From Pelargonium tetragonum (lineage: Eukaryota > Streptophyta > Magnoliopsida > Geraniales > Geraniaceae): a stretch of DNA of 64,000 bases. Within the stretch, counting starts at the first letter, position 1. Each line of letters opens with the position of its first letter. Below, piece by piece: positions 1,448 through 60,004 of the stretch. The stretch lies in the NCBI GenBank assembly GCA_036897445.1, contig JAYMTL010000031.1:62001-126000 (forward strand), in the 5' to 3' direction. Under the pieces are notes generated by a model. It was not told the origin of the DNA. It was given only the letters and a program-made list of their open reading frames with translations, and did no database searches. The translations under genes were made by a program, and so were the position numbers.

Positions 1448-2921
1448 TATAAAGCTGTAAAATTCACGAGATTTTTGAGAACTTTAGATTTACTTATATA
1501 GAAATATCTTTAGCTCATCCTTTGCAATTTTAGACTAAAAGCAAATGAAGAAAAAGGGGAGTCTATAAAATAAAAGAAATAATATACTCAACAGCTTATA
1601 CAGGAAATTGAGGTTGAATTTAATATATTTGTAGTGCTTCATTTAATGGTTAATTTGGATGACCCTCCCGTTTTTAACTATAATCAACTCAGTGATATTA
1701 AATTCTAACTCGTCTGCTTTTACTACAATTTTGGTTATCGACTACAATGGAAGTCCCTTTTACCATCTGATTGTCTTATTGAATTAATTGTTAGCACGTA
1801 AACGTAATATTCGAGTAAATTAGAAGTACCCCTGTAAAACTTTGTCACAGATCGTGCCCTCTGTATGCAGTAACACTATATATATCACGTACCCTCCCAC
1901 ACAGCCAAGCTTGTTAGAATATGCTGTATTCAGTTCTTTATCCGGGCTAAATTCCTTTTTATCGATTTAAATTCCCGGAGTTTCTCTGTATTGTTAGATA
2001 ATAAAGATTTTAGGATACGGAGAGAAAGGTCGTGCTCTCAAATGAAAATTTACCTACTAAACTACTTAAATTTTTTTCTGGACCCTCTCGAATGAATATA
2101 GTAGACACCCCCTTTCTTACTTTATACGCGGTAATAATAAGAGAATAATTATAGCGTCTTCTGCAGCATACTAGTAAGGTGTTGAGCACTGGCAACTAGA
2201 GAATTGCCAAACAAAGTTTTTAATCTTGATCAGTGAAAATAATGGAGAGATGTTAGTCGTTTACAATATGATCTTATATCAGACAAAGCTCTTAAGGGAT
2301 TTCAAGTAGGATTGAAGGCTAGCATGTTCTTGTCAGCTAGGACAGAGGAGAGAACTAAGAATAGCATTTATACCTATAAAACTTCTAATTATTAGTATCA
2401 GCTTTCTTATGTCATAGGTTGCCTACTTGAGTCTATTTGCGTATACCGAAGTAAATGGATCTCCTGTTTAGTACTTATTATTTATTACCGGATTCTGGGT
2501 TTGCAAAAAGAGTTTTATATCTAGTTCTTGTAACCTTACCTGATCGTTAATTACATTACCTTATATTATAGGGTATCCCTAGAGGTTCCTTGGGTTTTCT
2601 ACTTCTTTTTTTGAATATATGAGCTTCTACTGAATAAAATACTTGTGCCTTTCTTTATCTCTTTTTATTAGCTAGCTGGAATTGTAATTGTTAGAACAAT
2701 ATAAATTTGATTCTATCCTAGGCTCGAAATCAGAAATCCAAATCGTCCTTGTAAAATCCTCTCCACTTTAGTTATACTTCAAGTATGGTTATAGGTACTT
2801 CATAGTTCTATACTTCACTTCAAATCTTTCCTTGTACTTTTGATGCTTACCCTTTTTTACTATATAAACAAATAGATCATCCCGATTTGCAATGTAGTTT
2901 ATTAGAAGCATTTATGATCTT
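1448..2921. other. gene-free AT-rich sequence
   Basis: No coding or RNA gene is recognised. The 61-codon minus-strand frame at 2010-2195 has no family resemblance. The only notable element is a copy of the dispersed 15-base motif at 2547-2561, listed separately. Confidence 0.55.
2547..2561 (-). repeat. dispersed 15-mer, exact copy
   Basis: Exact AGGTAATGTAATTAA on the minus strand. Other copies are at 16599, 18516 (one mismatch), 24198 (one mismatch), 32871 and 35505 on the plus strand, and at 34756, 43263, 50762 and 59990 on the minus strand. Flanking bases are not conserved between copies, so the core itself seems to be the unit. Function unknown. Confidence 0.75.
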
Positions 2922-2992
2922 TAGAGTATATCCAAGTGGTAAAGCACAAGTTACTAGAGTTGGCATGCAAAGGTTCAAGCCGGGTCCTCTTT
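2922..2992 (+). pseudogene. trnQ-like sequence, degenerate
   Basis: Resembles plant mitochondrial tRNA-Gln: GAGTATA acceptor, CCAAGTGGTAAAGC D-arm, and the GGCATGCAAAGGTTCAA variable and T-arm segment. The anticodon stem pairs poorly (CAAGT/GTTGG). Counted strictly, the anticodon position reads CTA rather than TTG. The T-stem 3' side and the acceptor 3' side do not pair with their partners. A related copy at 7320 shares the D-arm and the GGCATGCAAAGG segment, and one at 45386 keeps the 3' half. Most likely a relic. Confidence 0.5.
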
Positions 2993-4004
2993 TCTATTTA
3001 AATTTTAGAGAGTTTGTTATTATTATCGCATTTACTTGATCCTGGAGAATGCATTCTCATCTAAAAAATTCTACTTAAGCTTAGTGCTTTTTTTATAAAT
3101 TACTACAATGACTTAATTTCGTAAAGTTGCACCCACGAGACCCATAAGTATTCGGATTCGGGCTTATCACTAATAAAACACTCCCCCCTTTTTTTGTAAA
3201 CTAAGTCAAACTTGATACCAAAGCTATAGCTAGCCTGTATCCAAAACCATACCACGACACATATTTCTTATTTTTAAAAAATAAGGAAATGAGTCCCGAG
3301 TAGACTCACGAATTCTGAGTTCCCTTAATACTATATAAAAATGCTATACTTGTAAAGTACACTGTAACTCATGTCATGGAGAAAGATTTAACATTATACC
3401 AGTAACTAACTCCGCTTCAGTAGGACCGAAGGTAGCTCCTTTTTTTCTGAGTTTTATCTATGAACCGTACGAGCACATATTTTAAGTGATTCTGAATTCT
3501 CCTTGTTACTACTAATTAAGAGCTTTTTAGCTTGTAGTGTACTTCTAGTTTTGATACTTTGGACTAGGCTAGGTAATTGAGTAGTAACTAGTAAAAGGGT
3601 ATTGAACTGTTTAGCGAGGAAAGCTCATTAAAAATTAAGGGGAAGTTTGACAAAAAAAAATAGAAAGAGCCCTTAACTTCTAATATCGTATATAAGCAAG
3701 GGTACGTCAAATTTACATCTCTTCGTACTTTCTCTTAGATAATGTTCATAAGTAGCATCATAAACTCTTACTCGTAGTAGGTTTTACTGTATATTCTGGG
3801 TGCAAATATGCATATTCTTTTTATTGCTACAGTTCTGTTCTATCTAGCTCCATGCTTTATGTAGCATCCCGTTTTACCTTGAAAAATTTCTAGACAGAAG
3901 TATAGAATATTAGCTCAACTCGGGGGTCTCTAGATTCCTTACGAATAGTTTATCCTTGGATCTACTTTTATTGTTATCTAACTTTATTTCATAATGGAAA
4001 TTGA
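2993..4004. other. gene-free sequence with a short hairpin
   Basis: No gene is recognised. An imperfect inverted repeat at about 3262-3291 (ATTTCTTATTTTT against AAAAAATAAGGAAAT, one bulge) could form an AT-rich hairpin. Confidence 0.5.
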
Positions 4005-4070
4005 CTTGGCAGAGGTTCGAGTTAAGTTATCAAGAATGTCGTCGGTTCAAATCCGGCTTCTACTTTAGAT
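4005..4070 (+). pseudogene. tRNA 3'-half-like sequence
   Basis: The segment AATGTCGTCGGTTCAAATCC followed by GGC forms a complete T-arm: stem GTCGG/CCGGC with one G-T pair and loop TTCAAAT. About seven bases follow where an acceptor 3' strand would lie. It resembles the 3' half of organellar tRNA-Trp or tRNA-Pro, but the upstream D and anticodon arms cannot be folded with confidence. A shorter TTCGAGT-like segment lies just upstream. The isotype cannot be assigned. Confidence 0.4.
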
Positions 4071-7000
4071 CGAAGCAGGGAGTTCTCTTTAACCCTTGAG
4101 TTGAGCAAACCTTATTGTAGATTGTATAGAATATGATATCAAATAATAAGAGTTTTAGATATTCCTCCTTAACGAATACGAAGTGGTAAGCATGTTAAAG
4201 CTAATTTGATAAGCTGCTACTCTGTATTCTTAGTCTTATAAAAAACCTAACCAAACTTTTTGCACTATAGATAGGTACCAGGGTATCGTTCGTTGTATTT
4301 GATATACTTTTAGTAATAAGAATTATATAGGCCAGGTCCCTTTTATTGATATAGCTTGTGTTCTAAGAAATGCATAGTCTGCTAGGGCGAAGGACCTCGG
4401 TGGTAGGCGTGCTTAATAGGTTTATAAAAATGAAGTTATTAACTGCATACAATAAGTGTGTTCTATAAAACTCGTATACGAAATCTTTTAACTCCATTTA
4501 TTAAAGAGTGTTCAGTTCAGTAAGATAAGCTAAGCTTTGAGTTATTGCACGTCGCGTTCAAGAGGGAATACCCTTAATTACTTCATTTAGAACCAGATTG
4601 AGGTCCCTCCGAAAATTTCTCAAAAGTTAATTTAATTGTAAAACCCCTTTTCTACCCTCTTATGCGTTATATTACTTATCAAGCTTAGCTCTTCAAATTC
4701 TTCTGGTATAACAGGGTATAGAAATGCAGCCGAAGCAGAATTTGCAAATAAATTACAGTTGCCCAAGTAAGGTTTCTGTTCTTACTGAATATTCTATTCT
4801 TAGAAGCTCAAATGTAGTAGACAACTGAATTACTCCCCTTTTTTATTTTCATTTCAGGCTAGTAAAGCTTTGGCTGAGAAAAAAGATATATTAACAAAGG
4901 ATTTTTATTCATTTATAGGGGAACAAGGCCCCAAAATTCATTTTAAAGTTCATTTTTAATGCGGTTTACTTTTATTTCAATAAGTTTACATTGATCTTTG
5001 CTCAACTCCAAGATCTATACACCCAAAAAAGAGGCTATCCCTAATAGTAATAGTAAGCTTGGGGTATTGTTAAGAAAGCGAGGATTTATTAGATTTTAGT
5101 AGTTTTATTTTATAGACTTTTCTAAGAAAAAAAGAATGAACAATATAAACTTCTATTCTATCTCTTGCAACAAGAGAAATTCCTACGCAAAATTTATATA
5201 CTCCTAGGAGAAGAGAAGCCTGATAGGATAGGTATAATTAAGCAGGTTTTCCTAGTCTAACGCAGTAGCACATTAAGGGGTTAAGGTTTTCTATTTACAA
5301 GACCTCGTTTATTTTAAGAATCCATACTTTACTGAGTTATCAAGCTTTTATATCAATGATACCCCGATACAAAAAGATAAGTAGGCATAAAAAATGATTA
5401 GGAAGTCAAACAAATTCTACATTTATAGAATAAGTCGCGTATTGCTAACGTAAATTTACACACTAAACTAGTATCGCAGAAGCCAAATAGAAAGAAAATG
5501 ATACATATGCTCTATAAAGCCTTGCGCAGAGATGCTTAGAAAAAACGAAGAAGATACTGCCCGCTAAGTTGTCAACATATGAAAGCGGGAATCCCATAGG
5601 AAAGACAAGTGGTTGTTAGAACGGAAAGGAAAGGGATTCCGTTAGTAAATCTGCTCCTACTTAACAAGAAAAGGTACAACTAAAATATAGTGAGATCTCC
5701 TCTTATCAGTAAAAGAGAAGAGAAACTTAATACAGCATGGGTAAGTTAATGTTACCGACTGGAACGTAGAGAAGGAAGTTAATGTATTAAATAGTTATAG
5801 ATAGTACCTACTTACATGCTATAACCGACAAAAAACCTTAACTTGAGTTCTATACCGAAATGCATTGCTTTAGCTTCAGTTCTTTATACTCCAAAACTTC
5901 TTACTATCCGAAGAAACCTAGAAAACACATGAGTTCAAGTCCCATAGTATAGTAAGACAACAGCTCCCTTACCTTACTAGGAGAGACCCTATACTCTCTA
6001 AAAGAAAGACTAGGGTGAGAGAAGGTTCTAATCCCAGAACACTTATAAGACTAAGAAAGATATATCTATCTTTTATAGAGAATCCCTTAAATAAAAAACC
6101 GACGAATAATTAGATAATGAATGAACGTGTTATTGTGATACGAAGCTTGGGATATAGCCGGTTGGTAGACAACAGGTGATGCCCTTCCTCGTTGCTCAAG
6201 TCCCCTTATTATGAGACTGTCAGGACTGGGATTTTAAAACAAACTTAGATCTTTCTCTAGCTGGAAACATAAGAAACCAACTCCTAGAGTAATAAACGCC
6301 CAATAAGTGCATAAGTGTGGCGTTTCGAAAGACTAGCTTAGGAAGGATTCGGGTAATCAATCCCATAACCGAAGAGATGCGCAAAGGGCTCATTTAGTAA
6401 GAAAGGCGAGCAGGACCGGACTTAACTAGATAGCCTAGGAGCTTCGGGAGAGACAGTTGAAAACGAAATGACTTATGTATGAAAGAACGCCCCCGTATTA
6501 GCACTAAGTAGAAGCTTATGCATACCTATATGACTGAGTAGCAATCTGTTTTTATTTGCGAGTTATACGTTATACAATAAATTCAAAAAAATGGAAAAAT
6601 AGAAAATCGGTTTATAGTGTAGCGACTAAATAACTTCGAGTTAACGACCCCCCCTGTTATTAAGAGTTTTTTGTATTCTGTGCAATAGACTTATACTAAT
6701 AATTAGATAGGTTAGAGTTATAGCAATCCTATAACTTTCTATCCAAATTCCAGGCATCTATATCCAATCTCCTGGAGTATCTCGAGTATTGCAAGACATC
6801 CAATTAGAGTATAAAACTGGGCTTCTAATGTGACTAACCAAGGAAATAAAGAGAGCTTCCGTGCGGAAAGGCTTCCTACTATTCCCACACTAACTACTAC
6901 AGCAGAGAGTGAATACCAAAAATGAAGGTAAACACCTTCTTTGTTTCATTTGTTTTTTTTTAAAGCAACAAACTACTTTTTTTGTGCAGCATGAGTGTAT

Positions 7001-7319
7001 ACGGGGAAGCTCGTGTGAACCCCTGTATAAATTCTAGAGAATAAAGTGAATAATATCTAATAAATAATTATGTTCTAACTAAAAGGAGAAGATTGTAGAG
7101 AACCGGATATATAAGCTGGTCATGATTATTCTTTAGGTTTTGTTGTAAGGGAAGCTTGCTTTGAGAAATGTGCTTTTTTATATTCTTTACTCACCCCTGT
7201 GGGGCAAGGTATAAAGGTGCGTGTTCGTAGGTACTCCTTTTTTTGCAATTTCCTTGATCAGTAAATCATTTATATACAAATAGAAATAGATCATTATCGT
7301 TCTAGGAGTTTTTTAGGTG
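4071..7319. other. gene-free AT-rich sequence
   Basis: No protein or RNA gene is supported. Near 6149-6212 a run GGGATATAGCCGGTTGGTAGAC resembles the 5' arm of a tRNA, and a weak TTGCTCAAGTCCCC T-arm follows. There is no foldable anticodon arm between them, so I do not call it. Short words of the GGGATTCC/GGAATCC type recur often, as in most of the window. Confidence 0.5.
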
Positions 7320-7391
7320 GAGAGTATAGCCAAGTGGTAAAGCAAACTTTTATTCAGATAATAGGCATGCAAAGGGTTTGAGCTTCATTGC
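7320..7391 (+). pseudogene. trnQ-like sequence, second degenerate copy
   Basis: AGAGTATAGCCAAGTGGTAA matches the tRNA-Gln 5' half better than the copy at 2922 does. GGCATGCAAAGG follows at the expected place. The anticodon segment between them is several bases too long and does not form a standard 5+7+5 arm. The T-loop has an extra G (GGGTTTGAGC), and no pairing acceptor 3' strand is visible. A relic with a preserved 5' half. Confidence 0.5.
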
Positions 7392-16598: not shown

Positions 16599-16613
16599 AG
16601 GTAATGTAATTAA
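16599..16613 (+). repeat. dispersed 15-mer, exact copy
   Basis: Exact AGGTAATGTAATTAA on the plus strand. Flanks differ from the other copies. Just downstream, at 16657-16678, is an 11-bp perfect tandem duplication of TAGTGTAGATG. Confidence 0.75.
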
Positions 16614-17773: not shown

Positions 17774-17795
17774 CTTAATTTTAATTAAAATTAAG
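17774..17795. repeat. 22-bp perfect palindrome
   Basis: A perfect inverted repeat with no spacer, half-site CTTAATTTTAA. It consists almost wholly of A and T. It could extrude a cruciform or form an RNA hairpin. No gene lies near it. Confidence 0.7.
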
Positions 17796-18515: not shown

Positions 18516-18530
18516 AGGTAATGTAATTAC
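18516..18530 (+). repeat. dispersed 15-mer, one mismatch
   Basis: AGGTAATGTAATTAC, differing from the consensus only at the last base. It lies at the end of a GA-rich run of the 18-25 kb array. Confidence 0.6.
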
Positions 18531-21345: not shown

Positions 21346-22340
21346 CATAGTACAAAGAGGGATGTCCCCTAGAACTCTAATAATACAACTCACTAACCTA
21401 TCTATACCTCTTACTATAACTCTAAGAAACCCAGCTACACTACAATAGGAAGACTTAGTTAGCTTACCTGTGTTCTATTACTGTCTCCCCTATTAGCTCT
21501 ACCTACTCCATTCCGATAAGCAGTTACCTCTATCGCCTAGGTATAGCTACGACTCATACTCTTGCTCTTGCTATATGTCTCCCTGTTCTTCCTGTTATTC
21601 CTAATCAGTGTTACTCAGCTAGGGTTAGGTCTTACTCTCCTGCTTCTCCTTCTGCCCCTCTCCTTAAAGGAGATACAAGGATACGGAATCTAACTCAAAC
21701 CCAAACTCTAAAACAAACAAGTAAAGACAAAGATGAAAGATATAAATAAAAAATCAAAGTCAAGGAGAAGTCAAAAAGGAAAAAGAAACTGAGTACTAGA
21801 CTAGAACTATATCGGACTTTCCTGTAAGGCACTTTACATGCCATAAAACACGAAGTGAACCTATTGAGCAAGGTGGTCTTATATCTCGTTCGATTTAATT
21901 AAGACGTTCTAGAAACCTTGGAATATTCTTCTTAAACTAACAAAAGTCCCTTTTTAGGTTAGAGGGGCACAGCTTAGCCAGAAACGCATTCACTTCAGTT
22001 AAATTACTTTATAGTTAGTATCAGAAATCCTGGAAACAATCCCAAGAACCCCTTCACTTTCTTCTTGCTTTCCCCGGGGCCTCCTTCTGACAATAACCTT
22101 CTTATTTTAGCCCATACCTTGTCGAGCTTGCTTCTTCATATCTAGACCTATCCACTATTTACTCTAGTTGCAACCAGACCCTTCTTAGAACCTCTACTTT
22201 TGGTACTGGAATTCTTCATAAGACCTAATCTTATACATACGTAGTTTCTTAGAGGCTTTCAGACCCTTTCTCTTATTCATCCCAATCTGAAGCTTTTTAG
22301 CCAGGAATTTCTCCTAATCATACTACCTATCTAAAGATAG

Positions 22341-24197: not shown

Positions 24198-24212
24198 AGG
24201 TAATGCAATTAA
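24198..24212 (+). repeat. dispersed 15-mer, one mismatch
   Basis: AGGTAATGCAATTAA, with one T-to-C difference from the consensus. It lies inside the 18-25 kb array. Confidence 0.6.
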
Positions 24213-25200: not shown

Positions 25201-28200
25201 AACCCATTAAAGCAAAGGAATACAAATACAGGAATACAGAATCTAGCTCAAACAAGCAGCAAAGAAAGAAGAAAATTTAGTAAATTTAGTAATTTGTCGC
25301 CTTGAACCTGTGGCCACTAGTATAGAAAAGAGTTGCTTGAACTATCTCTAGGCTACTTACGAATTCTCTGTTTCTAGAGTAAGATTTTCACAATGTCTTT
25401 ATTTAAGTAATTCTTTGTTAACTGAGAGGGGTTTCCTGCATTTTCTTACTTTTTCGTATAAGGGAATCCTACTTTTTTTGAAAACCAAATTTCATTAGCT
25501 AAATCAGGCTTTAGTACTTTTGCCGTAGGTGAATCCTCCTTTTCAGGAATTGAATACTGATTCTATATACAAATTCGTCTTACTTTTCTGTATAGGACAA
25601 TCCTAACTTTTCAGGAACTTGGATGCACTTTGTTAGCTAAATTCGGGTTTCTTCCTTTTACCGCAGTCAAATCATGTCAAGAAAACAAGTTCTCCAACAT
25701 AATATAGAAGGTTTCGGGTCCAGTTTTTGCTAAAAATGGAGGATACACATAGCGGCGGTCAAAGCCTTACTATTTTCTATTCTATTTTATATAAACTTTC
25801 CAAATAGTCAATTCGGGAATACATCTGGACTACCTCCCATTTGTATAAGGAACTATATATACAGCAATCCTTGAAAGACTTGCATAATAAAGAATCTCAA
25901 AAGTCAAAACTGCAGTAAAAGTTCAAATTGTAGAAAAAAAATCATACACTTTAAAATCCGATGAAGCTCACGGCCGTCTAATTGATTTAACAAAGTCTCC
26001 CTCCTCTTTACTTCATTTTATTCATGATACACGAAGCTAAGGCCAAAAAGTATAAGTCAAATCAATCTTCCAAGAGAAGCCAGTTATTTCTCTTTCGTTT
26101 TTGCATTTATTCCTTATGTGTAAGGAGATATTAAAGTTTCCTGATAGATATAGGTGCAATTAAAGTACGTAAATATTTCCGGTAAATCTTTTAGTCTAAG
26201 TCTTTATTAAGTATTACAAGCTAAAGCTTGCCTTACTTACAGTATAAGTTTCGAACCCTTATGGAACACTAGAAGCTTAAAATAGAATTAAAATGACTTT
26301 TTGATAAAAATATACATAAGGGTTCTCATTGATTCATTATATGCTTCCCAACCCAAGTCAAAGGGCTCCGTGGAATTTAGTAAGTTAGCTTTTAATGAAT
26401 CAACAAGTGATAATGGGTCTAGTACAGATTAAGACTTTAATACTAAGGAGCTCTCTTATAAAAATTTCTGGTAAAGAAGTCTTATTTTCTTACCTTCATA
26501 TAATTACTCTATAACTTTTACAGTGTAGCTGATTTCTAGTGTATCAACAGGACAACACTTTCTAGAATTATACTAGAGACTAGAAAATCTTAGTAAATAT
26601 CTTATTCTTACACTTACACGCACTTAACTTGCTTCGTTTCGGAACTATATACTAGAGTAATTAAACACTCATAAGGCAAGTACTTTAGATATCAGATATA
26701 AATCACGGGTGTTATACCCATTACATTTATCTACTAAGGGTCTAAATTGGCTGAGAAAGAAAAGATTCTCAATTTCTGAAGGTTAATTCTGAATCTATTC
26801 TAGTTATCACTAACTTGTATTATTTTCATAGTGAAAAAAGGGACTCTATCACTATTTAACATCTTTCGTACAAAATACTCATACACAATACTAAGACAAA
26901 GGTCTCGATTTAACTATCTTATAGTAGCCGCAATTTCTGTTAATAAGTGTTGGTTTTAGAGTATAGAGAATCTTTTTTTCTTGTAAATATTCCCTCATGA
27001 TGTTTCTATAGTGTTTATATATTCTTTCATTATAAGGGTGCATTTAGTCTTTAGTAGACCCTTTACGGATGAATAGAAATAGTCTGCCTTAACTCGCCTT
27101 CTAAGGAGTTTCCAGGAGATAAGCTATTCCAATAAAAAATCTGTACTAAAATTTTTAAAGGGGTATCCAGAATGAGGAAACAAAGGCCTAATTTAGGGAC
27201 ATAGGCCTCGAACCTAAGAGATTGTAAACTTACCCCCTGAACTCTAGGCTTCCTATAGAGTACAAAACTTCACTTCATAAAATGAAATCGTGCAGAATCC
27301 TTTACCTCGAGTTTAATAGCTATGGCTTAGGAATATTCATTCGGATAACACTTCTATTATCATTTGAATATTGCTTTATCTATGCTTAATTTAATAAAGA
27401 GCTCCTTTCTAGCTAAGGGCTGCGTTAATACAATAGCTTCAGTAAAGCACTTCCTGGGTAATGAAAGATAAAGGTATCTCACCTCATTTCTCCTGATGCT
27501 ACAAGTTTTTCTAAAAGATGCTAGCTTTCAAGCTTGCAGTATATGAGTATGCCAGGTCAAGGTCTAAGTCTTTTTAATGGGTTCCGAAATTCCTTGAGTA
27601 TAAGGTTAAGTTTCTTTTTTTAGGTATGGAATTCTTTAGATACCCCTTTTTTCACTCGCCCTGCAATTAGGGACTTACTAAGAGCAAGTGAACATTAATA
27701 ACTTACTTCATAGGAAAAAGAGCTAATGTAGCATCCCGAAACCCGGACCATCGTTAACAAACCTCCCTATCTTCAGTACAATTACCAGTAAATATCACTA
27801 AATTTATGCACTGAAAGGGGGAAAGAGAGTCCCGTGAGCTTTTGGTCGACTTACTGAATGTGATGCTAGGAAATTGAATACTTGCAGGACCCTATCTTAA
27901 TTATTCTTGGCCCTAGATACTCAGTGCAATTCAGACCTAGAATTTCCGAACTTAGACAAGTTTTCTCTATTTATAGGCATAGTCGAAAAGTTTTTCTTAA
28001 TGTTACAATATGGTTTTGGACTAGTCACTTTTTGTACTATACCCCCTTGTTTACTACAAATGAGACCTAACCTAAATAGAACTTTGAAAACAACTCTTGC
28101 TTTTAGGAATTGACTCATTAGGCTTTTGGTATTCTAATAGGTTACAAGCAGCCCCTTTGGCTGACAGAGGGAAATGAGTAATTTCCAAAATTCTCGCACA

Positions 28201-28890
28201 ACTTGACTTCTAAGAACTAATTCTTAAGGTAGTCGCTTCTGTCTAGATAGAATATGATATAAGTATAGGGTTATATACCAATGTAAGCCGATGGGAAGGC
28301 AGCTGTACTAATAAACCCGGGTTTTCCTGTACTAAACAAGGGACTTGACCTTCTGGATGTCTTTACTATTCTCCTACAACTAACTGAAAGAAAAGAATGC
28401 TCCATCTTTCTTTATGTTCCCCTGTATATAAGATACAAATTTAACGTCATAGAATTCTCTTAGATTTAGCTATATCCCTACTAGGACCTGAGAGAAGCCT
28501 TAAAAATGCATACACTTTTCCCCTCACTAACATAAAAAGAAGAAATTCGCAGATGTATCTTGGCTAACGCTAACACCTTTCAAATAGGGTTTTTTAGAAT
28601 ATAGAAAAAGGACAGCATCAAATAGAAATGACATGGTTTACGCATTTTACCTTTGGCTAGAGCACAGAACATAAAACCCGAAACAAAGGGAGATTGGATG
28701 GCTACCATTGAGATAAGGATAAACCCATTTGTTTGCTCTTTATAAAACTTAAAGATGTCGATAGTACTTTATTCCTAAGGATTCACTTATAGTATCCCAA
28801 TCTCGTTAATCTTTCTTTTGGTTCTACTCATCATACATTTGTCAATCAGAATACCGAAAAATACTACATGTTACAATATCTGTTTTAGGT
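25201..28890. other. gene-free AT-rich sequence
   Basis: No gene is recognised. The frames at 27882-28118 overlap one another on both strands and are chance products. A tRNA-like minus-strand trace near 27190-27245 (TTAGGTTCGAGGCC) has no foldable anticodon arm. A 400-base stretch near 25380-25700 has a loose internal repetition of TTTT-AGGGGAATCCTAC-type segments. Confidence 0.5.
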
Positions 28891-28962
28891 GGGTGTATAG
28901 TTTAGTTGTCAGAGCATTGGAAGAAAAACCCAACGGTCGCGGGTTCAAAGCCCCTTATTACA
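28891..28962 (+). tRNA. trnK-like tRNA, most complete cloverleaf in the window
   Basis: A 72-base cloverleaf can be drawn: acceptor GGGTGTA; D-stem GTTT/GAGC with G-T pairs; anticodon stem TTGGA/CCCAA with one A-C mismatch; 7-base loop AGAAAAA; T-stem GCGGG/CCCCT with one mismatch; loop TTCAAAG; and a partly pairing acceptor 3' strand TATTACA. The 5' 30 bases and the variable region CGGTC follow plant mitochondrial tRNA-Lys. The loop no longer reads TTT: strict counting gives AAA, while a shift of one gives GAA (Phe). The A-C mismatch would be repaired by C-to-U editing. It lies 168 bases upstream of ccmC on the same strand and could serve as its 5' processing signal. It may also be a relic. 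Confidence 0.45.
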
Positions 28963-29130
28963 AGGAGACATTCGTTTTAAGAAAGTTAGGTAAAGTAAAG
29001 AATCAGTCAGTAGAATCACGAGTAAGAAATTTTTATTTCACTTATTTTCCACTGTAGTAAGTAGTAAAGTTTCCTTTCTAGCCGAAAATTGAAAAGAAGC
29101 TCTTAGAGTTTGGCGTTCCCCCTCTTTTTA

Positions 29131-29756
29131 ATGTTACAGACAAAAAGATATGCAAAGTTTTACGTTGGATTATCTTTCTTTTTAACAGTGATGGCTACTT
29201 ATTTAAGTCTTTTTACGTCAACACAAGATTTGACGCAAGGTGTAAATTCCGTTCTTTTCTTTGTACATGTCCCTGCAGCTTGGATGAGTATTCTTCTTTA
29301 TCTCACTACGTGTATAAGTGCTTTTTTCTAGTGAGAAGGCATCCTCTTTATCTTCGCTTTGTTGGAACTTCCATAGAGCTAGGGGCTCTTTTTACCTTCT
29401 TGACCTTAATTACAGGTTGCTTGTGGGGAAAACCAACTTGGGGCACCTATTGGGTCTGGGATGCTCGCATAATCTCTATCTTACTCTTATTCTTTATTTA
29501 TCTGGGTGCGCTCCTTTTTCTAAAGCTTTCCGTCGAACTGGCTTCTCTTTTCATCTTTCTGGGTTTACTCGACATAGTAATCATTAAGTTTTCGGTCAAT
29601 TGGTGGACTACATTACATCAATCAGAGAGTTTAGGTCTCTTTTCAACATCCGTGTCTTTCTTAATGCTAATTCCCCTTCTTTTGCATTTTGCGAATTTTT
29701 TGCTTTTCAGTTTTGCTTTTCAGTTTTGCTTTTCTTTTTTCTGGAACCGTCTTTAG
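29131..29756 (+). CDS. ccmC: ccmC, haem exporter/handling protein, with one apparent frameshift
   Basis: CcmC is an inner-membrane protein of the cytochrome c maturation (System I) pathway that presents haem to CcmE. Two reading frames cover it. Frame 1 runs from ATG 29131 to a TAG at 29329 and holds two membrane segments and VHVPAAW with the conserved His (codon 46). The other frame continues from about 29322 to TAG 29754. It holds the tryptophan-rich haem-binding motif WGKPTWGTYWVWDAR (29424-29468), NWWTTLHQ with the second conserved His (29616-29618), and four membrane segments. The frames meet in a T6 run (29322-29327), and one extra T would make them continuous. Homology to angiosperm ccmC seems to start upstream of this ATG (SL..PLFLM), where a TAG at 29104 ends the frame, so the start is uncertain. 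The C terminus is shorter than in angiosperms by roughly 30-40 residues. Pseudogene, sequencing error and fast-evolving functional gene all remain possible. Confidence 0.85.
29698..29734 (+). repeat. 13-bp tandem repeat inside the ccmC 3' end
   Basis: TTTTGCTTTTCAG is repeated 2.8 times (29698-29710, 29711-29723, partial 29724-29734). The unit length is not a multiple of three, so each gain or loss changes the frame. It lies just downstream of the conserved FANF segment and probably explains why the C-terminal residues are unlike those of other plants. Confidence 0.85.
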
Positions 29757-32870: not shown

Positions 32871-32885
32871 AGGTAATGTAATTAA
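32871..32885 (+). repeat. dispersed 15-mer, exact copy
   Basis: Exact AGGTAATGTAATTAA at the junction between the A/C-rich and GA-rich parts of this field. Confidence 0.75.
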
Positions 32886-34755: not shown

Positions 34756-34770
34756 TTAATTACATTACCT
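34756..34770 (-). repeat. dispersed 15-mer, exact copy
   Basis: Exact copy on the minus strand. The next copy, at 35505, is on the plus strand, giving a convergent or divergent pair 0.75 kb apart. Confidence 0.75.
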
Positions 34771-35274: not shown

Positions 35275-35820
35275 CCCAGTCAGACCAAGCCAAGGAAGTA
35301 GCAGCTCTGAATAAGAGTATCTCCCTCGGGCTAAGAAAAAAAAAGTTCTAGGTATAGTGGTCCCGCTGAATAGGTTTCAGATCTGTGTTAAAAGTTTATT
35401 ATCAAATAAGTTAATGTCCTTAGTTATTAGTGGAAGTCTTTATCCTTAAAGAGTTCTTAGTCTTATTAATTGTGAGTGCCTCTGTCCTTTACCTAGCTGC
35501 AGCAAGGTAATGTAATTAATGGTATTTCAGGATAACTAATTGTCTCTGGGGTTCCCTTATTCTGTTTATAGTAGGCAGTCAAGCCCAAGGTTTCTGTATT
35601 TATTATCAATTAAGTTGGTATTCTCCTATCTGCAAGGCAAGCAGGTTCCTGCACAATTACAATAAGGAAAGGTAAGTTTACTTAAGGTTGCAGCTCTTTC
35701 ATTTCTAGTTGTTTGTAAGCCTGTAAAGGGAGTTGTCATGCTTCTTTTAGGATTCAGTTTGAATAGATTTAAGAATTAGAAAGCATTATTTATTAGGGCT
35801 CAAAGACCTGAATTAAAATA
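35275..35820 (+). repeat. diverged repeat block, copy 1 (partner 41155-41510)
   Basis: Contains GTAGCAGCTCTG (35300) and a 38-bp segment at 35375-35412 (starts TTTCAGATCTGTGTTAAAAG) that is 36/38 identical to 41473-41510. Further on are AAGCCCAAGGTTTCTG (35583) and TTAGGATTCAGTTTGAATAG (35749), which match 41196 and 41229 in the partner. In the partner these last two segments come before the 38-bp segment and not after it, so the block order is permuted. Confidence 0.75.
35505..35519 (+). repeat. dispersed 15-mer, exact copy
   Basis: Exact AGGTAATGTAATTAA inside the 35 kb repeat block. It is absent from the 41 kb partner, so it is not simply carried by that repeat. Confidence 0.75.
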
Positions 35821-38399
35821 AAGTCAATTTTGAGTGAGAAACATCTTACTTAATAAAGGTCATAGGTATGGTAAGCATTATAAAGCGTGGAGTCAGCTAG
35901 GCAAGCTTGCTTGTAAGATTATCCTGCAATTTACTAAGAAGTAGGTTTCTGCATTAAGAGTTCCACAGGTACACTTCTCTTGGGCTCATCTACAGGCTCT
36001 AGCTAAGGCTCAGGCAAGGGTTCCTCCTTCTGTGCTTTGGCATGCTAAAGAAATAAGTTAAGAGTAAGGTACAGATTATGAACTGAAGTAAGGTCCTATT
36101 CTTCTTTTTCTGGTCATAATGTGTAAGTAGATAGATTCCTTTGTCAATAAGGCACTATCCTCGACGCATAGAACTGGATGTATATCCCTTATAGCTTCTC
36201 TACTAACAGCTTATCTAACTTCTATCCTAGAAACAAGAGTCTATCTAGAGTATATGAACAAGTAAGCTACATAATAGCACAACAGGGTTAGGGTCTTCTC
36301 TCATGGGTAGTATGTATGGCAGGGTATTGCTCAGGCAGAAGCATCGGGTATAAATAAGGTATGCAACAACAAGGTCAGCAGCAACAAAGTCAAGAAGTTA
36401 GTCAATAAGAAGTCTATCTATAAGCAGCACACACAGGCTCTCTGGATCTGGGTATTTACGGTATTTAACCTTTATAAGAGTTTTGGGAAGTCCACAAGTT
36501 GAAGAGGGTTCTGTTTTAGTCTTTTAGCATGTAAGTAGTTATACACACACAATATACTCTAAACTATCCTAAGTTTTTTTTTCCTATTCAACAAAACGAT
36601 AAGAAGCATAAGCAGGAGGAATGTCCCTTACTAATACTAACTACTTTTCTTATAATACCTTCTATTTCTATCGTATGCTCGGCCATAAACTCTCTGTCAA
36701 GTACCCGTATAAGACAAGGCTCTTAAAGATTATAAGCTTAATACTTTAGGACAATACACACTCTAATTAGCTTCGTTGAACTCTTGTTTGTTCTGAATTA
36801 GGGAAACCCGCCTGAAAAATATATCTGAGTTAGGTAAATAGAATTACAGAATTCTTAATTAATAAAGAATAACTACGAAAAAAATACATTTGAAAAAAAA
36901 AAGTCTTGAGTACAATAGAAAGATAATTTTAATGAGAGTTCCTTGTAGAATATGGACCTCGAAGCCCTATAAAAGTTATTCTTATCTCACTATTAACCAT
37001 TAACCAGGGTTTTCCAAATTGTGGTGAGAGCCCCGTTTTTACTAGATTTAGGAGGACCTCAAGACTTGGCATAGGTGGGTGGTGCTTGAATTCTTTCTTT
37101 TTCGTACCTAACAGCTATCTTGGATTGTGTTTAGCTTTGGAATTCTTACCCCTAGTAGTCTCTCTATATTACCTTAATAAAAAAGGTAAGCCCCGTATTG
37201 AAACCTACATAAAAGTAGCCGCCCCGCGCAGTCCGATTACAGTTAATATGGAATATTCCTTATACCGAATCCTTAAAGCGTTATAGGAGCTCGGGAAACT
37301 TTATATAACATGTAAATATTTCAGTACAAATAATATAGATATAGATGGAGTTCTCTCATATAGGTAAACTATTACTTTTTCGCTAAATCAGAATAGTTCA
37401 AAGGAAGCCTCCTTCTTTATCAGCTCTGCTATATTCTACCCCTTAAAGATTTTGGTAAATAGACAGCGTTTAAAAGTCATTTCTCATTATACCCTCACTT
37501 CTGGTTACAAAGGGACACCTTAGGTGCTACGTTGTAAATACTTAGGCGAATCCGAAGGAAATGAAACTCCGTCTAGAAATGAAATAGTTATGGGGTAAAG
37601 TTTTTTATTCACGAGCTGAAGTCTTAAAGAAGATAGCTATGAGTCCCTTATGAAATATGAAACCCTAGAAAGACTCCTAAATCGGTTCCTTTTTCTTTAT
37701 AGTAATGTAAACTTTGTGCTTTGCTTCTTGGATCAGATCAGAATAGAGAGGGTGTTTATCTATTTATTGTTCTTTTTTTTAGTGCTATTAGGAAGTTGAT
37801 CACACTTGGAGCTAGTGCTTGTTATCTAAAAAGCAGCGTGAATTTCAAATGAAGGCTTATAAAAATTCTGATGTATTAGGACTATGAATGGGGATACTAA
37901 TGTAATACTCAAAGAGAGCCCTTCCTAGGGAGTCAAGTACAATAAAGTATAAATATGTAAAATAAACTAGCTTGATCCTTAGAGATTTCCTACATATCGA
38001 AAATGAGTAGAAGTTGAAATTTAGATGTCTATTTTGCCAAAGCCTTGCATTAGAAACTAAAGCTCCTTCCGGGGAATTCATAATTAAGATAAAAAAGGTA
38101 AAACTGACTAAATAGTAGCAAAACAAACCATCCTTAGAAGCAGAAGCTCTTGAATAAAAGTGCTTTGGAGCTTATTCTTCTTGTTGGAAAGAAAGTGACT
38201 CGAGTAAGAATACTAAATTTGAAAGGGCAGAATATAGAGTCCTACGAAACACAAGAAAAGGATAAGGTGCTATACCCGGTTTAGAATTAACCACTTGCTT
38301 CTTTATAGATACTACAACGGGAAAGTCACAATAAAGTAGTTACTCTTTACTAGAGCTAGGAGGTTCACTCATCATGAGTATATTCTAATGGACCACCTT
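35821..38399. other. gene-free sequence
   Basis: No gene is recognised. The frames at 37086-37286 (+, 66 codons) and 37857-38126 (-, 89 codons) have plausible composition but no motif I know. The part up to about 36.5 kb is G-rich on the plus strand and shares words such as TTCTGTGCTTTGG with 62385-62402. Confidence 0.45.
35899..35916 (+). repeat. dispersed 18-mer AGGCAAGCTTGCTTGTAA, exact copy
   Basis: One of four exact copies: 35899 (+), 42638 (+), 43976 (-) and 59342 (+). The core GCAAGCTTGC is a perfect 10-bp palindrome. Flanks differ between copies. Confidence 0.75.
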
Positions 38400-42637: not shown

Positions 42638-42655
42638 AGGCAAGCTTGCTTGTAA
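42638..42655 (+). repeat. dispersed 18-mer, exact copy
   Basis: Exact AGGCAAGCTTGCTTGTAA. The nearest other copy (43976) is inverted, 1.3 kb away, so recombination between them would invert that interval. Confidence 0.75.
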
Positions 42656-43262: not shown

Positions 43263-43277
43263 TTAATTACATTACCT
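43263..43277 (-). repeat. dispersed 15-mer, exact copy
   Basis: Exact AGGTAATGTAATTAA on the minus strand, between inverted copies of the 18-mer. Confidence 0.75.
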
Positions 43278-43975: not shown

Positions 43976-43993
43976 TTACAAGCAAGCTTGCCT
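43976..43993 (-). repeat. dispersed 18-mer, inverted exact copy
   Basis: Exact reverse complement of AGGCAAGCTTGCTTGTAA. Confidence 0.75.
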
Positions 43994-44227: not shown

Positions 44228-44253
44228 TATAGTTTGTATTAATACAAACTATA
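44228..44253. repeat. 26-bp perfect palindrome
   Basis: Perfect inverted repeat with no spacer, half-site TATAGTTTGTATT. It is the longest perfect palindrome I noticed in the window. It could form a cruciform in DNA or a hairpin in RNA, or be the scar of an inverted duplication. No gene adjoins it. Confidence 0.85.
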
Positions 44254-45385
44254 CCCTTCTGATAATTAGAATTTATATCCTACCTGTGCCTAGGAATAGT
44301 GAACCCAAATTACAGTGTAATTACAGACCACTAGAGGTTGACTCTAACCTAGAGGGACCCGCAACAAAAGATTTTTATCTACTATCCTGTTATATTAAAC
44401 CTCTTAAGGAATGCTTTACCCTAAAACTAAAACACGACTTGGTCTACCTTATTCTGGAAACTTTTCCCAATTCATGCGACTAAAAGTCAAACCGTACTCT
44501 AATATCTTTAAATCTCTCGTTTGTATTACGTATCACCAGCACTGGTCATAAGTATTTCAAGGCCTAACTGATCCTGCACTAGCTTATTATAACAAGACTT
44601 ACTTATATTTTCTAAAAACCCCCAAGATCTTTTTATTGCAACGAACCTAAGAAATTAGTAAAGCTCCTTACTTCAGGGAAAAATGAGTACTTTTTATCTA
44701 TATTGAGTGGGGATTCCTAGAATTTACTGGTTAATCCTCTATTTATATAATAGACAGGGAGAATTGGGGATTTAATGCTTAAAACTCAGCTGGAGAACCT
44801 GGATTAGGTCATGCCTTTCATATTTTCTAATTATTTGTGAACTAAACCGGATTGCTTAGGTACCACGGCTATATCAGGCTTAAAGAATCTCAGGAGTGCC
44901 ACTTTACTTATGAGCTTCGGCTCAGTACAGCAAAAGGTGGGTTACTTTTCCTTTGTTTTCAGTAAAAACATCTCCTAAATTTGACAAGATCAGTACTTAA
45001 AAGGATGTGCCTATTTATCAGAGTTTGCGTTTCGAACTAAATTAAGAGAGAAGATATGCCTTTGCTATTCCTAAGGTTTTCTTAATTCTAGTTGCCTCAG
45101 TCTCTCTATATTTTCTTTATCAAAAGTCGAAATCCAAGCTTTATTACTGTTTCAAACTCTTTTTCTACCTATTAGGCAATGCACTCTTGGTTTTTAATGG
45201 TTATAAAAAATGTGTGTTTCTATAGCTTGTAAAAGCTTGCAAAATCGTAAGTGAGATTGTATTAAAATCACTTAAATAGAAATCCTACTTAATTGATCGC
45301 TCCTCTTCCCAGTCTTACTAATTCGAATATAGCTTTAGTTTTTCAATAGGCTATATCTTAGTACGACCCAACACTCCTCCTTTTT

Positions 45386-45443
45386 GAAGGTAAGACAGAG
45401 TTTGATTGTTCCGACATGCAAAGGTTCAAATCCTGCTTTACTC
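45386..45443 (+). pseudogene. trnQ 3'-part-like sequence
   Basis: GGTAAGACA followed about 20 bases later by CGACATGCAAAGGTTCAAATCC and then TTTACTC matches the tRNA-Gln order of D-loop, variable loop, T-arm and acceptor 3' end. The 5' acceptor strand and first D-stem strand are missing, and the anticodon arm does not fold with a TTG loop. It complements the copies at 2922 and 7320, which keep the 5' side. Confidence 0.45.
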
Positions 45444-48752: not shown

Positions 48753-48816
48753 TACCCACTCTCGGATTTGAACCAAGGACTCTTGCCGAAAGCAAGACTC
48801 TAACCGCTGAGGGGTC
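48753..48816 (-). pseudogene. trnE(TTC)-like sequence lacking part of its 5' side
   Basis: On the minus strand the anticodon arm TCTTG-CTTTCGG-CAAGA is perfectly paired with TTC at the anticodon position. The T-arm CTTGG-TTCAAAT-CCGAG is paired with one G-T. The end GTGGGTA is a plausible acceptor 3' strand. On the 5' side only ACCC matches that strand, and three to five bases of acceptor and D-arm appear to be missing before CAGCGGTTAGAG. A copy with a 5' deletion, or a divergent functional tRNA with a reduced D-arm. Confidence 0.5.
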
Positions 48817-50665
48817 AAAACTGTTGAGAAACACAGAGTAATACATTATAATATTAATATGGAGGGTTAAGAGCCGAGCCCCAACCGCAAAAGGTTAACT
48901 TGTATAGGATTTCTCCTAATAACTCCGAGTGCTTTAAAAAGGAACTGCCGGACACTCTTTCTAAGCTAAGTATGGGTATACAAGAATTTCTTTATCTAGA
49001 TAGAGCTAAGTATATAGTTACCTAGTTTTATAATAAGTATAAAGTAAAATTAAACCTTAGAAAAACTTTAGAAGGGCTACGTTTTCCCTAAAAGAGGGTT
49101 AGATAGAATCACTTAGAACTTAGATAAGGAGATTATTTACTTGTTACTCTAGAGGAATAGTAAATAACCTATCCATTTAACTAAACTAATTAAAAAGAAT
49201 TACTCGTTACAAGAAAGATTTAAAAACTCCTCGATATAAGCTAGGATCAACACAAGGATCCTTATAATCTAGCTCAAAAAATTTTTAGGGTTGAGCGCAG
49301 CAAGAACTTAATATCAACCAGGGTTTAATGGGTTCAAATCTGCTTGCTATTTTTCAACTTTTTAGTATGCAAGGCTACTCTCCGGTAAATCCGTAAATAG
49401 AGACCTAAAAGAATCCAGTCTTTTTTGTGAATAGAAAAGTCATACCTACAATCTAAAAGAGGCTTTCTTAAAAAAAAGAAGTTGACTCTTAAACTAAAAC
49501 TGACAATAAGCTGCTACACGGCAGGGCTGTTTTCAGCTACATTTCATAGACTTTCTTTTTACTTACTTTATATCCCTGCGTAACAAAAAGTTTTTCTAAA
49601 TAAGAGTTCTCTGAAGTCTTTGCTACTTGCTTAAAGGGTTCCTTTCGTTTTTTTTCTAGCCTTAGAAACCTTTTTAAATAAGGTACTTTCTCTATAATTA
49701 GGAATCTACTGACATATAATCGTATAAATTCTCGTTTTTAGTTAGTCGAGGAAGTCCCAAACAAGGCTTACTTCACTGCTTTCACTTTTTTTCTAACTGC
49801 GAATTTGGGTTTACATGAGGCTCTATATACCTTGCTAGGAAGGGGGCCTCCTGCACAGAATAGCTATCAATAAAGTATAGAACTCTAAAAACGGGAAACC
49901 CACTATAAAGTCCACTTTCGAGCTAGGCACTTCCTTTTCACTTCCCTCTTAAGGGGCGCCTTCTTTAGTTTAGAAACTCAATTTTATACAATGTTTCCTT
50001 TTTCTATATGCCTTGAGGACCTTAGGTTCGCCGGAGTTAATAACTAGAAAGTCCTTTTACCGAGCCCTGAATGCCCTTACTTAATATCATCCATACTTTA
50101 TCTGCGAAGTTTTGTACTTATGTTATAAGGAGTTCCTTAGATTTTCGTGAATACTTACAAGATACTCTCTGGTATTTTGGGCTCCTATAATTAATAGAAT
50201 GTAGATTCAACTAAAAAGTATCCAAAAAGGTTCCGCTTGAGAAATTTGCCGAAGTCTGATAAGTAGGAATTTAAGCGTTTTCCTTCCTTATATACTTTTG
50301 GTTGAGTGTCGAGGCTTCTAGTACGGAATTGTTACAGCATTTGAATATACAAGGATTTCCGCACAAGCCCTTTTAAGTATCGGTATGTTCCTGTAAACTT
50401 CATAGAAAACAAGGTTTAGAAACCAGATTAATAACGAATCCTATAGGTATATGTTACTTGCCACAAATAAGGCAAGGTTAAACCCTTATAAATAGTTCCA
50501 GTCTTATTCTTTTTAAGGGGCTTTTTTTTGTCTACTTAAATTGATAGTGTTCTGACTCTTGGCTAGTGAAACTAATAATTTTTTGCATTTTACTCTGTTC
50601 TGTTAAGGCCTAGTTTAGGAGAGTACGCGGATCGCTTTACCTTATCGAGCTTTTTTTTTTTCATT
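48817..50665. other. gene-free sequence
   Basis: No gene is recognised. A T-arm-like GGGTTCAAATCTGC at 49330-49343 has only a faint GCGCAG segment upstream and is not called. Confidence 0.45.
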
Positions 50666-50737
50666 TTACTATAGGGGATTTGAACCTGCGACCATTAGAT
50701 TAAAAGTTTAATGCTTTTCCAACCGAGCTATACACCC
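50666..50737 (-). tRNA. trnK: trnK(TTT)-like tRNA
   Basis: Best Lys match in the window: GGGTGTATAGCTC start, loop CTTTTAA with TTT anticodon, stem TTAAA/TCTAA, variable region TGGTC and T-arm GCAGG-TTCAAAT. Departures: a C-A pair in the D-stem, an A-C pair in the anticodon stem, a poor T-stem 3' side and an acceptor 3' strand (TATA then GTA) that has lost the terminal CCC. A one-base loss in the T-stem would put TATA in register. Two of the mismatches are of the kind C-to-U editing removes. The 15-base dispersed motif lies 25 bases upstream on the same strand. It may be expressed or a recent relic. Confidence 0.5.
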
Positions 50738-50761
50738 GGAATAAAAACTTCTGTTACACTA

Positions 50762-50776
50762 TTAATTACATTACCT
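50762..50776 (-). repeat. dispersed 15-mer, exact copy, 25 nt upstream of trnK-like gene
   Basis: Exact AGGTAATGTAATTAA on the minus strand, ending 25 bases before the trnK-like 5' end at 50737. This is the only copy I find close to a gene-like sequence, so a promoter role is conjecture. Confidence 0.7.
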
Positions 50777-52799: not shown

Positions 52800-52843
52800 G
52801 CCGGTTTAATAGCCCAATGCTCTACCAACTGAGCTATACACCG
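52800..52843 (-). pseudogene. trnK 5'-half
   Basis: GTGTATAGCTCAGTTGGTAG followed by AGCATTGGGC is an almost perfect match to plant mitochondrial tRNA-Lys from the acceptor through the 5' anticodon stem, including an intact D-arm. The loop reads CTATTAA, and similarity stops abruptly after it, with no T-arm. A sharp 5'-half fragment 2.1 kb from the copy at 50666, on the same strand. Confidence 0.6.
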
Positions 52844-54279: not shown

Positions 54280-54793
54280 AGTATTAGTTTTATCTTTTGA
54301 TACTATAATTCAGTAATTTATTCCTCAAGGTATTAGTACGGTTTACGTTTCAATGGGATTGCCCCTTTGTGAAGACACATGAAGAAACCTAACCTAAATT
54401 AGAAATCAGTATAGTAAGGTGTTTATCCCCTATAATTTAGAGAGTAAAGCTCTTGAGGACTCGCTTGTAAACCCTATAAAAAATTCTCTCTTTGATCGCT
54501 TGGGTGCCTTTTTGGTATTTAATGCGTATGCTTACTAGTAATACAAGGACGGAGCTTGAGTCTCAAGTAACAGGAGCGCCGCGTTAAATTAAAAGGGGAA
54601 TCCGCAATTTCATATGAGTGACCGGTGGCTCACGTAAAAGACTTTTCAAGGATATAAGGCATTGCGTGTTCTATTTTTCATTAAGAATAAACTAAAAATC
54701 GTACAATTCCCAAAATTTTTAGGTGTGATACTGCGGAATTAAAATATCTAATAAGGAAATAAAAAAAAGAGTCTAGAGTATACCTAGAAATCT

Positions 54794-54865
54794 TCCTCAA
54801 AAGCTCAGTTGTAGAGCGTTTGGCTGTTAACCGAATGGTCATAGGTTCAAAAATTGTGCCTCTCC
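54794..54865 (+). tRNA. trnN: trnN(GTT)-like tRNA with degenerate 3' end
   Basis: The first 60 bases follow plant mitochondrial tRNA-Asn closely: acceptor TCCTCAA, D-arm GCTC-AGTTGTA-GAGC fully paired, anticodon stem TTTGG/CCGAA paired, loop CTGTTAA with GTT anticodon, variable TGGTC, and T-arm ATAGG-TTCAA. After that the sequence (AAATTGTGCCTCTCC) cannot pair with the T-stem or the acceptor 5' strand. Either a 3'-truncated copy or a tRNA whose 3' part is changed by a process I cannot see in DNA. Confidence 0.5.
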
Positions 54866-57015: not shown

Positions 57016-57055
57016 CTCGTGATTACGAAAGTAGACTCGTGATTACGAAAGTAGA
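57016..57055 (+). repeat. 20-bp perfect tandem duplication
   Basis: CTCGTGATTACGAAAGTAGA occurs twice, head to tail, without a difference. In a window where other repeats are heavily diverged, this duplication must be recent. Confidence 0.9.
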
Positions 57056-57833
57056 AAGGAAGGAATACTAAAAATAGATCTGTACTACCCCTTTGTTCCT
57101 ATAATAGAAAGGCTTTTGCTGAATTGCATAAGGAATTATTTCCGGTCAAACCTCACTTAACTTAAAAGGGATCCTATAGTTTTATAAGTTGAATAAGTAA
57201 AAATAGCAAGTCGGCTTTGTCTCACAACAGAGGGTATACCATACCAACACGAAGTCTTCAATAGTCTTTTTTCACCAAAAGGGTTAAGGATTTATAAGCC
57301 CTGCACTTCTATATATCCGGTTCAAATATGCATAAATAATAATAATATTAATTAAAAAGCTTGCAGCTAGAGCAATTAACCTCTGGTATTTTTCATTTAT
57401 ATAGGCAGGAATTAGGTCCTTGGGGGACACCCTGAAGTGCTGGGATTATACTCCTACCTGTCGAAGAATTTGAAGAATTCAAAATTTATCTTATTCATTA
57501 TTTATCTTATTCATTTTAGTAAGAAACTCATTATGAGAAGTTCATGTAAGTAACATTAGAGTCATCACAGAAAACATGTAAACTAAAAAGCTCAGACATG
57601 AGAAATTGGGGATAATGGGGATCCTTGTATAAAGGGTAAGGCAAGGCTCGTTTACTTGTTCATAGAGAATCATTAAAGCTAAGCATGGGTAGGGTTTGAT
57701 CAGTTACTTATGGGTATTTCCTTGTCGATTTAATTAGGAGTAGCCTACCCTAAAAGGCAGATTAGCACCCTAAAAAGGGGAACTTGACTTTCAAATCCAT
57801 GAAAAAAGGTGTGGCAGCCCGGAAGAAATTACC

Positions 57834-57883
57834 TTGTTAATTAAAGTCTAGAATACCACACATTTCGGGATTTTAATTAACAA
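57834..57883. other. inverted repeat with 12-bp stem
   Basis: TTGTTAATTAAA at 57834-57845 is the exact reverse complement of 57872-57883, with a 26-base loop. A second short pairing (CTAGAAT/ATTCTAG) lies just beside it. It could be a transcript-end hairpin, but there is no gene upstream to attach it to. Confidence 0.6.
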
Positions 57884-59341
57884 ATTCTAGTGGGGCAAAG
57901 TCCTCTGAAAAGGCAGCAACTAAGTGTTGGTAAATCTTTGGTTTTTCCTAAATTATGTCGCTGTATACTCTTTATTCTCTATCGGAAGCTATTAATACAA
58001 TGACAAGGAAAGCTCTCAAGTCAATTGCCAGCCAGGCTTATAAGCAGGTAAAGTAGTTTCAGGAATATAGGGAAAGCTCGTTTTCTCATTATCCAGTTTA
58101 AGATAGGGAGTTCTTCTGTTAGAGGTTTTTTAATAAGTGTGGTTTATCCGGAGAAGTTTAAGCTGATCGATGTTTCTGCGTTAAAAGACCTTTTAAGAAG
58201 TAAGTATTTATTGCTTTTTTAGGACTCGTACAGTACTGAAGTTTTTTAAGTTAAGGTAGCTTTTTAAAGTGGAAATTGCTGGTTAGAGTTTTCCCCGATC
58301 AAAGAAATTGTAAATAAAATTTTTACGAGGTAGAATGAAACTAAGTATAAGTAAGTAATCCGGGGATAGTCATTTCTGAATTATATAGTAAATGTTGGCT
58401 CCCGTAAGATAGTTTTGGGGTATAGCAAACTAGGGATCTGTTCTAGAGAGTAACTTAGGAATTCTTCGAGATCGAGAGTATACTACAAGTTTCTACTCAG
58501 CATTAGTCCTGTCTTTCTAAACTTAAAGGGCTATAAAACTCTGTTCCTCTTTACAACACTCTGTTAACCGCACTAGTTGGAATTTACCTGAAACAAAAAG
58601 GGTTTTTAGACCTCGTCGAATACAGAACTACGAAAAGTATCTACTAAAAAGGAAGTCCTAAGGCTCTTCTCAAAAGCTCACTGGAGGTTCGGAGTAACTC
58701 TATTTAATTAAAATCCGGGGGAAGAGGGCTTTTTCGAGATTTCGTATCGAAGGGTTTTGCTGAACTGAGCAGGGTTCTGTTTACAAGGTGGGGCAAAGTT
58801 CACTAAGTTGAATAGGAAGAATCCCAGTTGATATAGTAGGAGCTTTTCTAAGATCTGTGCAATAAGAAGTCTCTAATCAAAAAGAAAGTCTTACAATTTA
58901 TAAGTACGAGGTAAACTAGAGTCTTCTCATTTCTAACCAGTAAACCGGTAGGGATTCTAGAAAGCCCCAGGAAAGATTGATTATAGAAGTCCCAAATACG
59001 ACTTGATAAACGAAAAGTTTTGTAACTAAAGCCTTCAAGGTAAAATCTAGTGTATTCCAGAAATTGAAGTTTAGTAGGTTCCCGGTTTCGGATTAAAGGT
59101 TTCATAACTATATAAACAAGGTCTTCTGTGGTTGGGCGATTTGACTAGCAGCTAGTAGATAGAGATTTTCTTTGTTGGATAGAGCGAGGGCTTTTCCCTT
59201 AAGTAAGTAGGCTCCGCTTTAGGGTTTTGAGATAGAAGGGCCCCTTTAGTTTAGGATTATAAGAAAGTCTCTTTGGCTTTCCTGTTGGCAGGTATATCAG
59301 ATTCGCTGGAAAGGGAAGTCATTCAAATTCAAAGGAAAGAT

Positions 59342-59359
59342 AGGCAAGCTTGCTTGTAA
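59342..59359 (+). repeat. dispersed 18-mer, exact copy
   Basis: Exact AGGCAAGCTTGCTTGTAA, immediately before the 59370-59480 diverged repeat. The 62 kb partner of that repeat has no 18-mer at the same place. Confidence 0.75.
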
Positions 59360-59989
59360 ACGGGTCGGATCGCCACCTGACTTAGTATTGAAACTTAGTA
59401 TAATTGACACGCTAGATAAGGGTTCTAGCATTGTTTGTTGGTTTGATCTAGAATCCTATTTCTTTAGCTTTGACTGGAAAAGCTTTTCGTTCATTATAAA
59501 AGGAATTCAGTCGTTGCTCTGCGTTGCCGGTTTCTTTGTCTAAGCTGTTTGGGAAGTGCAAGGGTTTTCCTTAGTTCTTAGCTAGTGAAGGAGATTTAAG
59601 AAGTAAAGTATAGAGATTTCCCGCTTTCTTGGGCTTAAAGGTGCTCCTAGGTTTGAACGGGGTTATGGAAGAAAGCTTATAAACCAGAGTCTTTACTGAA
59701 CCAGGTGGAGTGGGACAAAGTCAATAAGTTGAGGTATTATCTTACTCATAATCTATTGTATAAGCCAGCTTATATATAGTAATTCCTTTTAGGTAAAAGT
59801 CCAGCTGATTAAGAGGCTCTAATAAAATCACGCACTGTATAATAGGGATAATCCGAGTCAGGCTTTCTGTAAGGCTTTGGGTAGGAAAGCAAGTCAAGGA
59901 GTATAAAATAAGTAGTGCTGGCTATCTCGAGTCTAGGGTCTATACAAAAAAGAAGGGCCTTTCTAGATATAAACATCGGCATGATTCTA

Positions 59990-60004
59990 TTAATTACATT
60001 ACCT
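59990..60004 (-). repeat. dispersed 15-mer, exact copy
   Basis: Exact AGGTAATGTAATTAA on the minus strand within the G-rich field. Confidence 0.75.

Follow-up and report, generated by a model that had tools for sequence, protein, structure and literature searches.

The 64-kb window (the whole stretch of DNA analysed here) contains two families of very short dispersed words, A and B, which have the same build: AGG at the start, a short inverted repeat inside and TAA at the end. The 15-base word of family A, AGGTAATGTAATTAA, could well be the unit of a family of tiny short interspersed repeats in a land-plant mitochondrial genome that has expanded and contains hardly any genes; we consider the case for this reading about evenly balanced. 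The 18-base word of family B is AGGCAAGCTTGCTTGTAA. The copies found in the window are as follows.

2547..2561, minus strand, family A, exact
16599..16613, plus strand, family A, exact
18516..18530, plus strand, family A, last base A to C (AGGTAATGTAATTAC)
24198..24212, plus strand, family A, T replaced by C at base 9, the midpoint of the TAAT-GTA-ATTA dyad (AGGTAATGCAATTAA)
32871..32885, plus strand, family A, exact
34756..34770, minus strand, family A, exact
35505..35519, plus strand, family A, exact
43263..43277, minus strand, family A, exact
50762..50776, minus strand, family A, exact, ending 24 bases before a trnK(UUU)-like remnant on the same strand (50666-50737)
59990..60004, minus strand, family A, exact
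35899..35916, plus strand, family B, exact
42638..42655, plus strand, family B, exact
43976..43993, minus strand, family B, exact
59342..59359, plus strand, family B, exact
26214..26233, minus strand, family B variant (AGGCAAGCTTTAGCTTGTAA), with 2 additional bases in the middle of the CAAGC/GCTTG dyad and unaltered arms and ends

Copy number of the 15-base word

On both strands of the window, eight exact copies of the family A word and two with one mismatch were found, at precisely the ten positions listed in the initial annotation. The matches at zero, one, two, three and four mismatches numbered 8, 2, 0, 7 and 54, against 0, 0, 0.8, 3.9 and 44 under an order-4 Markov model. These numbers describe an intact cluster followed by background only; those at three and four mismatches are near chance, and random words taken from the window are likewise slightly in excess at 3 to 6 mismatches. 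The 150 bases of the ten copies contain 2 substitutions, never two in one copy, which counts in favour of a repeat family.

It is very improbable that the family is due to chance, to pieces of longer ordinary repeats or to an assembly or adapter artefact, and no support was found for any of these when low complexity and AT richness were considered. The expectation of about 0.001 exact copies in the window, which the annotation had given, was re-derived from base composition, and no exact copy arose in simulations. In the comparison with shuffled sequence that it had proposed, run here in the window, dinucleotide shuffles gave 0.61 matches at up to two mismatches and never reached ten. Against an artefact, the copies are embedded in unique sequence and lie on both strands. 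Furthermore, in an unbiased scan of all 15-mers the family ranked first by a wide margin, within one as well as within two mismatches; it has ten members within one mismatch, compared with at most four for any word in two simulations.

Anatomy of the units and a second family

The family A word is laid out as AGG TAAT GTA ATTA A, with base 9 at the centre of the dyad, and both variants (a C for T at base 9, a C for A at base 15) are altered off the arms. The layout of family B is AGG CAAGC TT GCTTG TAA. Its word has four exact copies and none with one to three mismatches, and in the fifth copy the TT at the dyad centre is replaced by TTTA; as a half-site pattern, the family has five matches in comparison with 0.01 expected. 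These counts, together with the AGG start, internal inverted repeat and TAA end common to both families, speak for interspersed repeats. The probability that a second word would have the AGG and TAA ends by chance is about 3 in 10,000, an estimate from base composition for a pattern that was noticed post hoc. The existence of a second family of the same architecture means that the signal is a class rather than a single word. The word family described in the annotation is real, and family B, with the same architecture, had been overlooked. A candidate third family (ATAAGACTAAGAA) was marginal in the repeated-word scans and was set aside. Also repeated, though more weakly, is the purine-rich word (A)TAAGACTAAGAA, whose four or five copies are distributed over both strands (4227, 6045, 24583, 35454 and 40770).

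As the main alternative, the units might be binding or initiation sites kept by selection, such as promoters of a phage-type mitochondrial RNA polymerase, RNA end-processing sites bound by PPR-type proteins or replication starts, and the copies would then be identical because altered ones are lost or inactive. We regard this explanation as possible, although tentative. It is favoured by the variants, in which the dyad centre or an outer base was hit and the arms were spared; this sparing, in three variants of the two families, may reflect protection, and the number is too small to prove it. The 4-bp dyad of family A could be a chance feature, as dyads of 4 bp are not rare in 15 bases, and this counts against the repeat reading. 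Neither family showed significant folding as single-stranded DNA, since family A was unfolded and family B folded no better than its own shuffles, and a stable hairpin was rejected.

Edges, flanks and positions of the copies

The edges of family A are sharp, which again supports a repeat unit. When the word was shifted by one base, the number of exact copies fell from eight to three or four, and the 10-mers inside the word were found almost only within full copies, indicating that there are no truncated copies. The sequences flanking family A carry information content at the background level, and no word of 6 to 8 bases, and hence no companion motif, was common to the family A sites beyond the level of random sites. 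Thus the unrelated flanks reported in the annotation were borne out, as was its suggestion that copying or retention concerned just these 15 bases; the unrelated flanks rule out a longer ordinary repeat as the unit, the case in which it would have withdrawn its claim.

Break-repair filler, in which one short tract would be templated repeatedly by microhomology with neither a defined unit nor a function, appears unlikely. Exact repeats of 14-20 bases that occur twice are in general slightly overrepresented in the window, as is expected in recombining plant mitochondrial DNA, but filler would be expected to have ragged edges and many source tracts, and what was observed is ten copies with identical edges, none of them truncated, and just one other such word.

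Target-site duplications were absent, as none of the ten family A copies is bordered by direct repeats of 2-8 bases, and no target preference was detected at any of these copies, which counts against insertion. The positions of family A are compatible with a uniform distribution (KS p 0.93), as would be favourable to a dispersed repeat. Copies of family B lie closer to those of family A than expected (p 0.014, in a post hoc test); the interval from A to B was considered as a repeated transcription unit and rejected because the intervals are unrelated to one another. Older duplications near 35505 and 59990 stop short of spanning the copy, so that no pair of filled and empty sites is readable.

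When flanks were compared in anchored alignment, faint similarity was seen for 16599/43263 in family A (p 0.0007, 45 pairs compared) and for 42638/43976 in family B (p 0.005, 10 pairs compared). If real, these pairs would be cases in which the core stayed identical while its flanks diverged, and that would favour selection. Against this, the similarity is marginal after correction for the 45 and 10 pairs and has no clear extension farther out, and the copies have no companion motif or compositional signature in their flanks.

Genomic setting

The window looks like decayed, almost gene-free noncoding DNA of a land-plant mitochondrion. Its G+C content is 35%, lower than the 41-47% or above of the published plant mitochondrial values compared, and hardly any reading frames are longer than chance. 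The organellar origin guessed in the initial annotation is supported by a mitochondrial-type ccmC remnant, by tRNA remnants and by a dinucleotide bias unlike that of CpG decay. The ccmC remnant, the sole protein-coding remnant found, lies at 28790-29756 on the plus strand and matches TIGR01191 (6e-42, under the curated cut-off), Pfam PF01578 (1e-23) and, in the PDB, the E. coli heme exporter protein C. Its N-terminal part is in one frame and its C-terminal two thirds in another, which argues for a pseudogene or a frameshift, and its editing-type codons appear to be already in the edited state, as judged from the sequence. The tRNA remnants are all degraded, and their likeness was assigned by reading.

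2923-2973, plus strand, trnQ-like
7321-7375, plus strand, trnQ-like
about 45340-45440 (45400), plus strand, trnQ-like
48753-48830, minus strand, trnM-like
50666-50737, minus strand, trnK-like
54793-54863, plus strand, trnN-like

The T-loop word GGTTCAAATCC has six copies in the window. Searches of the window against Rfam gave no intron, no rRNA and no RNA family at the gathering score, and only two sub-threshold tRNA matches. The dinucleotide ratios of the window are 1.35 for AG/CT, 0.53 for CG and 0.76 for CA/TG. A transfer of mitochondrial DNA to the nucleus with decay through CpG methylation is unsupported, because TG/CA is low (0.76) despite the low CG (0.53). Three old local duplications are 75-95% identical (35282-35412/41347-41510, 18860-19001/22612-22732 and 33040-33175/33492-33604), which indicates that ordinary repeats in this window do decay. 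Between 21800-22200 and 60068-61057 there are three reverse-complement matching segments (79%, 100% over 28 nt and 86%) in the same order at both places, with unequal spacings and opposite GC skew. Two perfect palindromes, at 44228-44253 (26 bases) and 17774-17795 (22 bases), exceed chance length.

Insertion versus selection

Under the interspersed-repeat reading, each copy would be a whole unit of 15 (family A) or 18 bases (family B) placed in unrelated sequence on either strand. The whole unit may have been inserted as a copy during break repair, or by an enzyme recognising the common ends, recently enough that the copies have barely decayed. If so, the two families probably share one mechanism and arose in a recent burst. 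On the other hand, units this short encode nothing that could drive their own copying, and the lack of a decay series would follow equally from selection; both points count against the repeat reading.

Selection would explain why conservation is all-or-none while a gene, tRNAs and other duplicates nearby are clearly decayed, and the family A copy that lies 24 bases before the trnK-like remnant on the same strand is consistent with a functional role. In addition, a stretch from about -15 to +4 suffices for plant mitochondrial RNA polymerases, and ATTA or AGTA can serve as the core (PMC5040748). Nevertheless, there are almost no genes in the window for such sites to serve, the plant mitochondrial promoters known so far are degenerate, and the dicot nonanucleotide promoter CRTAAGAGA, of the CRTA type, was found nowhere in the window (1 expected), nor inside AGGTAATGTAATTAA. 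It is the missing target-site duplications and the all-or-none conservation in decayed DNA that make us retain a functional site as a possible explanation with a real share of the probability. That selection maintains an undescribed class of near-invariant cis elements of 15-18 bases (promoters, RNA-processing sites or replication starts) all through the gene-free DNA of plant mitochondria seems rather unlikely to us; if it were true, the two versions of AGG, dyad and TAA would imply a sequence-specific factor new to plant mitochondria.

Comparison with known systems

The word AGGTAATGTAATTAA was not found in a literature search of open papers. Viral and plasmid relatives were rejected: the 15-mer occurs once per contig, equal to the chance prediction, and the family B word once, the single ccmC relative among viral contigs is a bacterial-type contig of 65% G+C, and no plasmid matches 16-24 kb. 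Fungal and algal organelles contain GC clusters, double-hairpin elements and short palindromic repeats that are likewise short, dispersed and intergenic, with inverted repeats and sharp edges. These elements are longer and G+C-rich and form stable hairpins; family A folds without stability.

The promoters of plant phage-type mitochondrial RNA polymerases (with CRTA/YRTA, ATTA and AGTA cores; PMC5040748) are of similar length, and AGGTAATGTAATTAA contains GGTA and ATTA. However, those promoters share only a core of 4-9 bases, whereas in family A 13 of the 15 bases are invariant in almost gene-free surroundings.

The nearest precedent is the Bpu elements of 36 bp in the mitochondria of Cycas and Ginkgo, about half or more of which are identical to the consensus (PMC8297867; PMC6971862; source Chaw et al. 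2008, as described in PMC8297867). Like the families found here, these are very short interspersed units in mitochondrial noncoding DNA (of gymnosperms), many of them identical to the consensus; the units start with AAGG or AGG, and an inverted repeat is visible inside the Bpu consensus. In numbers the behaviour is similar as well, with 10 (A) and 5 (B) interspersed copies per 64 kb, of which 8 and 4 are identical. None of the three defining sequence features of Bpu was found, and membership is rejected. The best match in the window to the 36-bp consensus (AAGGTTATCCCTTTCCTGAGCGTAGCGAAGGGAAGG) has 14 mismatches, in comparison with 12-16 in simulations. Bpu elements have direct AAGG repeats at both ends, which are absent here, where units of 15 and 18 bp run from AGG to TAA between unrelated flanks. 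The Bpu10I site, CCTNAGC, is in neither word and occurs 22 times in the window (21 by chance).

Families A and B are therefore best read as further tiny repeat families that are not members of Bpu but are Bpu-like in behaviour, and it is the Bpu precedent together with the matching build of the two families that favours tiny interspersed repeats. According to a 2020 review of gymnosperm data, Bpu in Cycas and Ginkgo was the one repeat-family expansion that had been reported in plant mitochondria (PMC6971862); later work may differ, and the literature search here covered open papers. With two more families, built alike from units of just 15 and 18 bases, it would be clear that such small repeats originate independently. 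The question whether they spread or are retained through binding would also become open to test, and each answer bears on why plant mitochondrial genomes have swollen with noncoding DNA.
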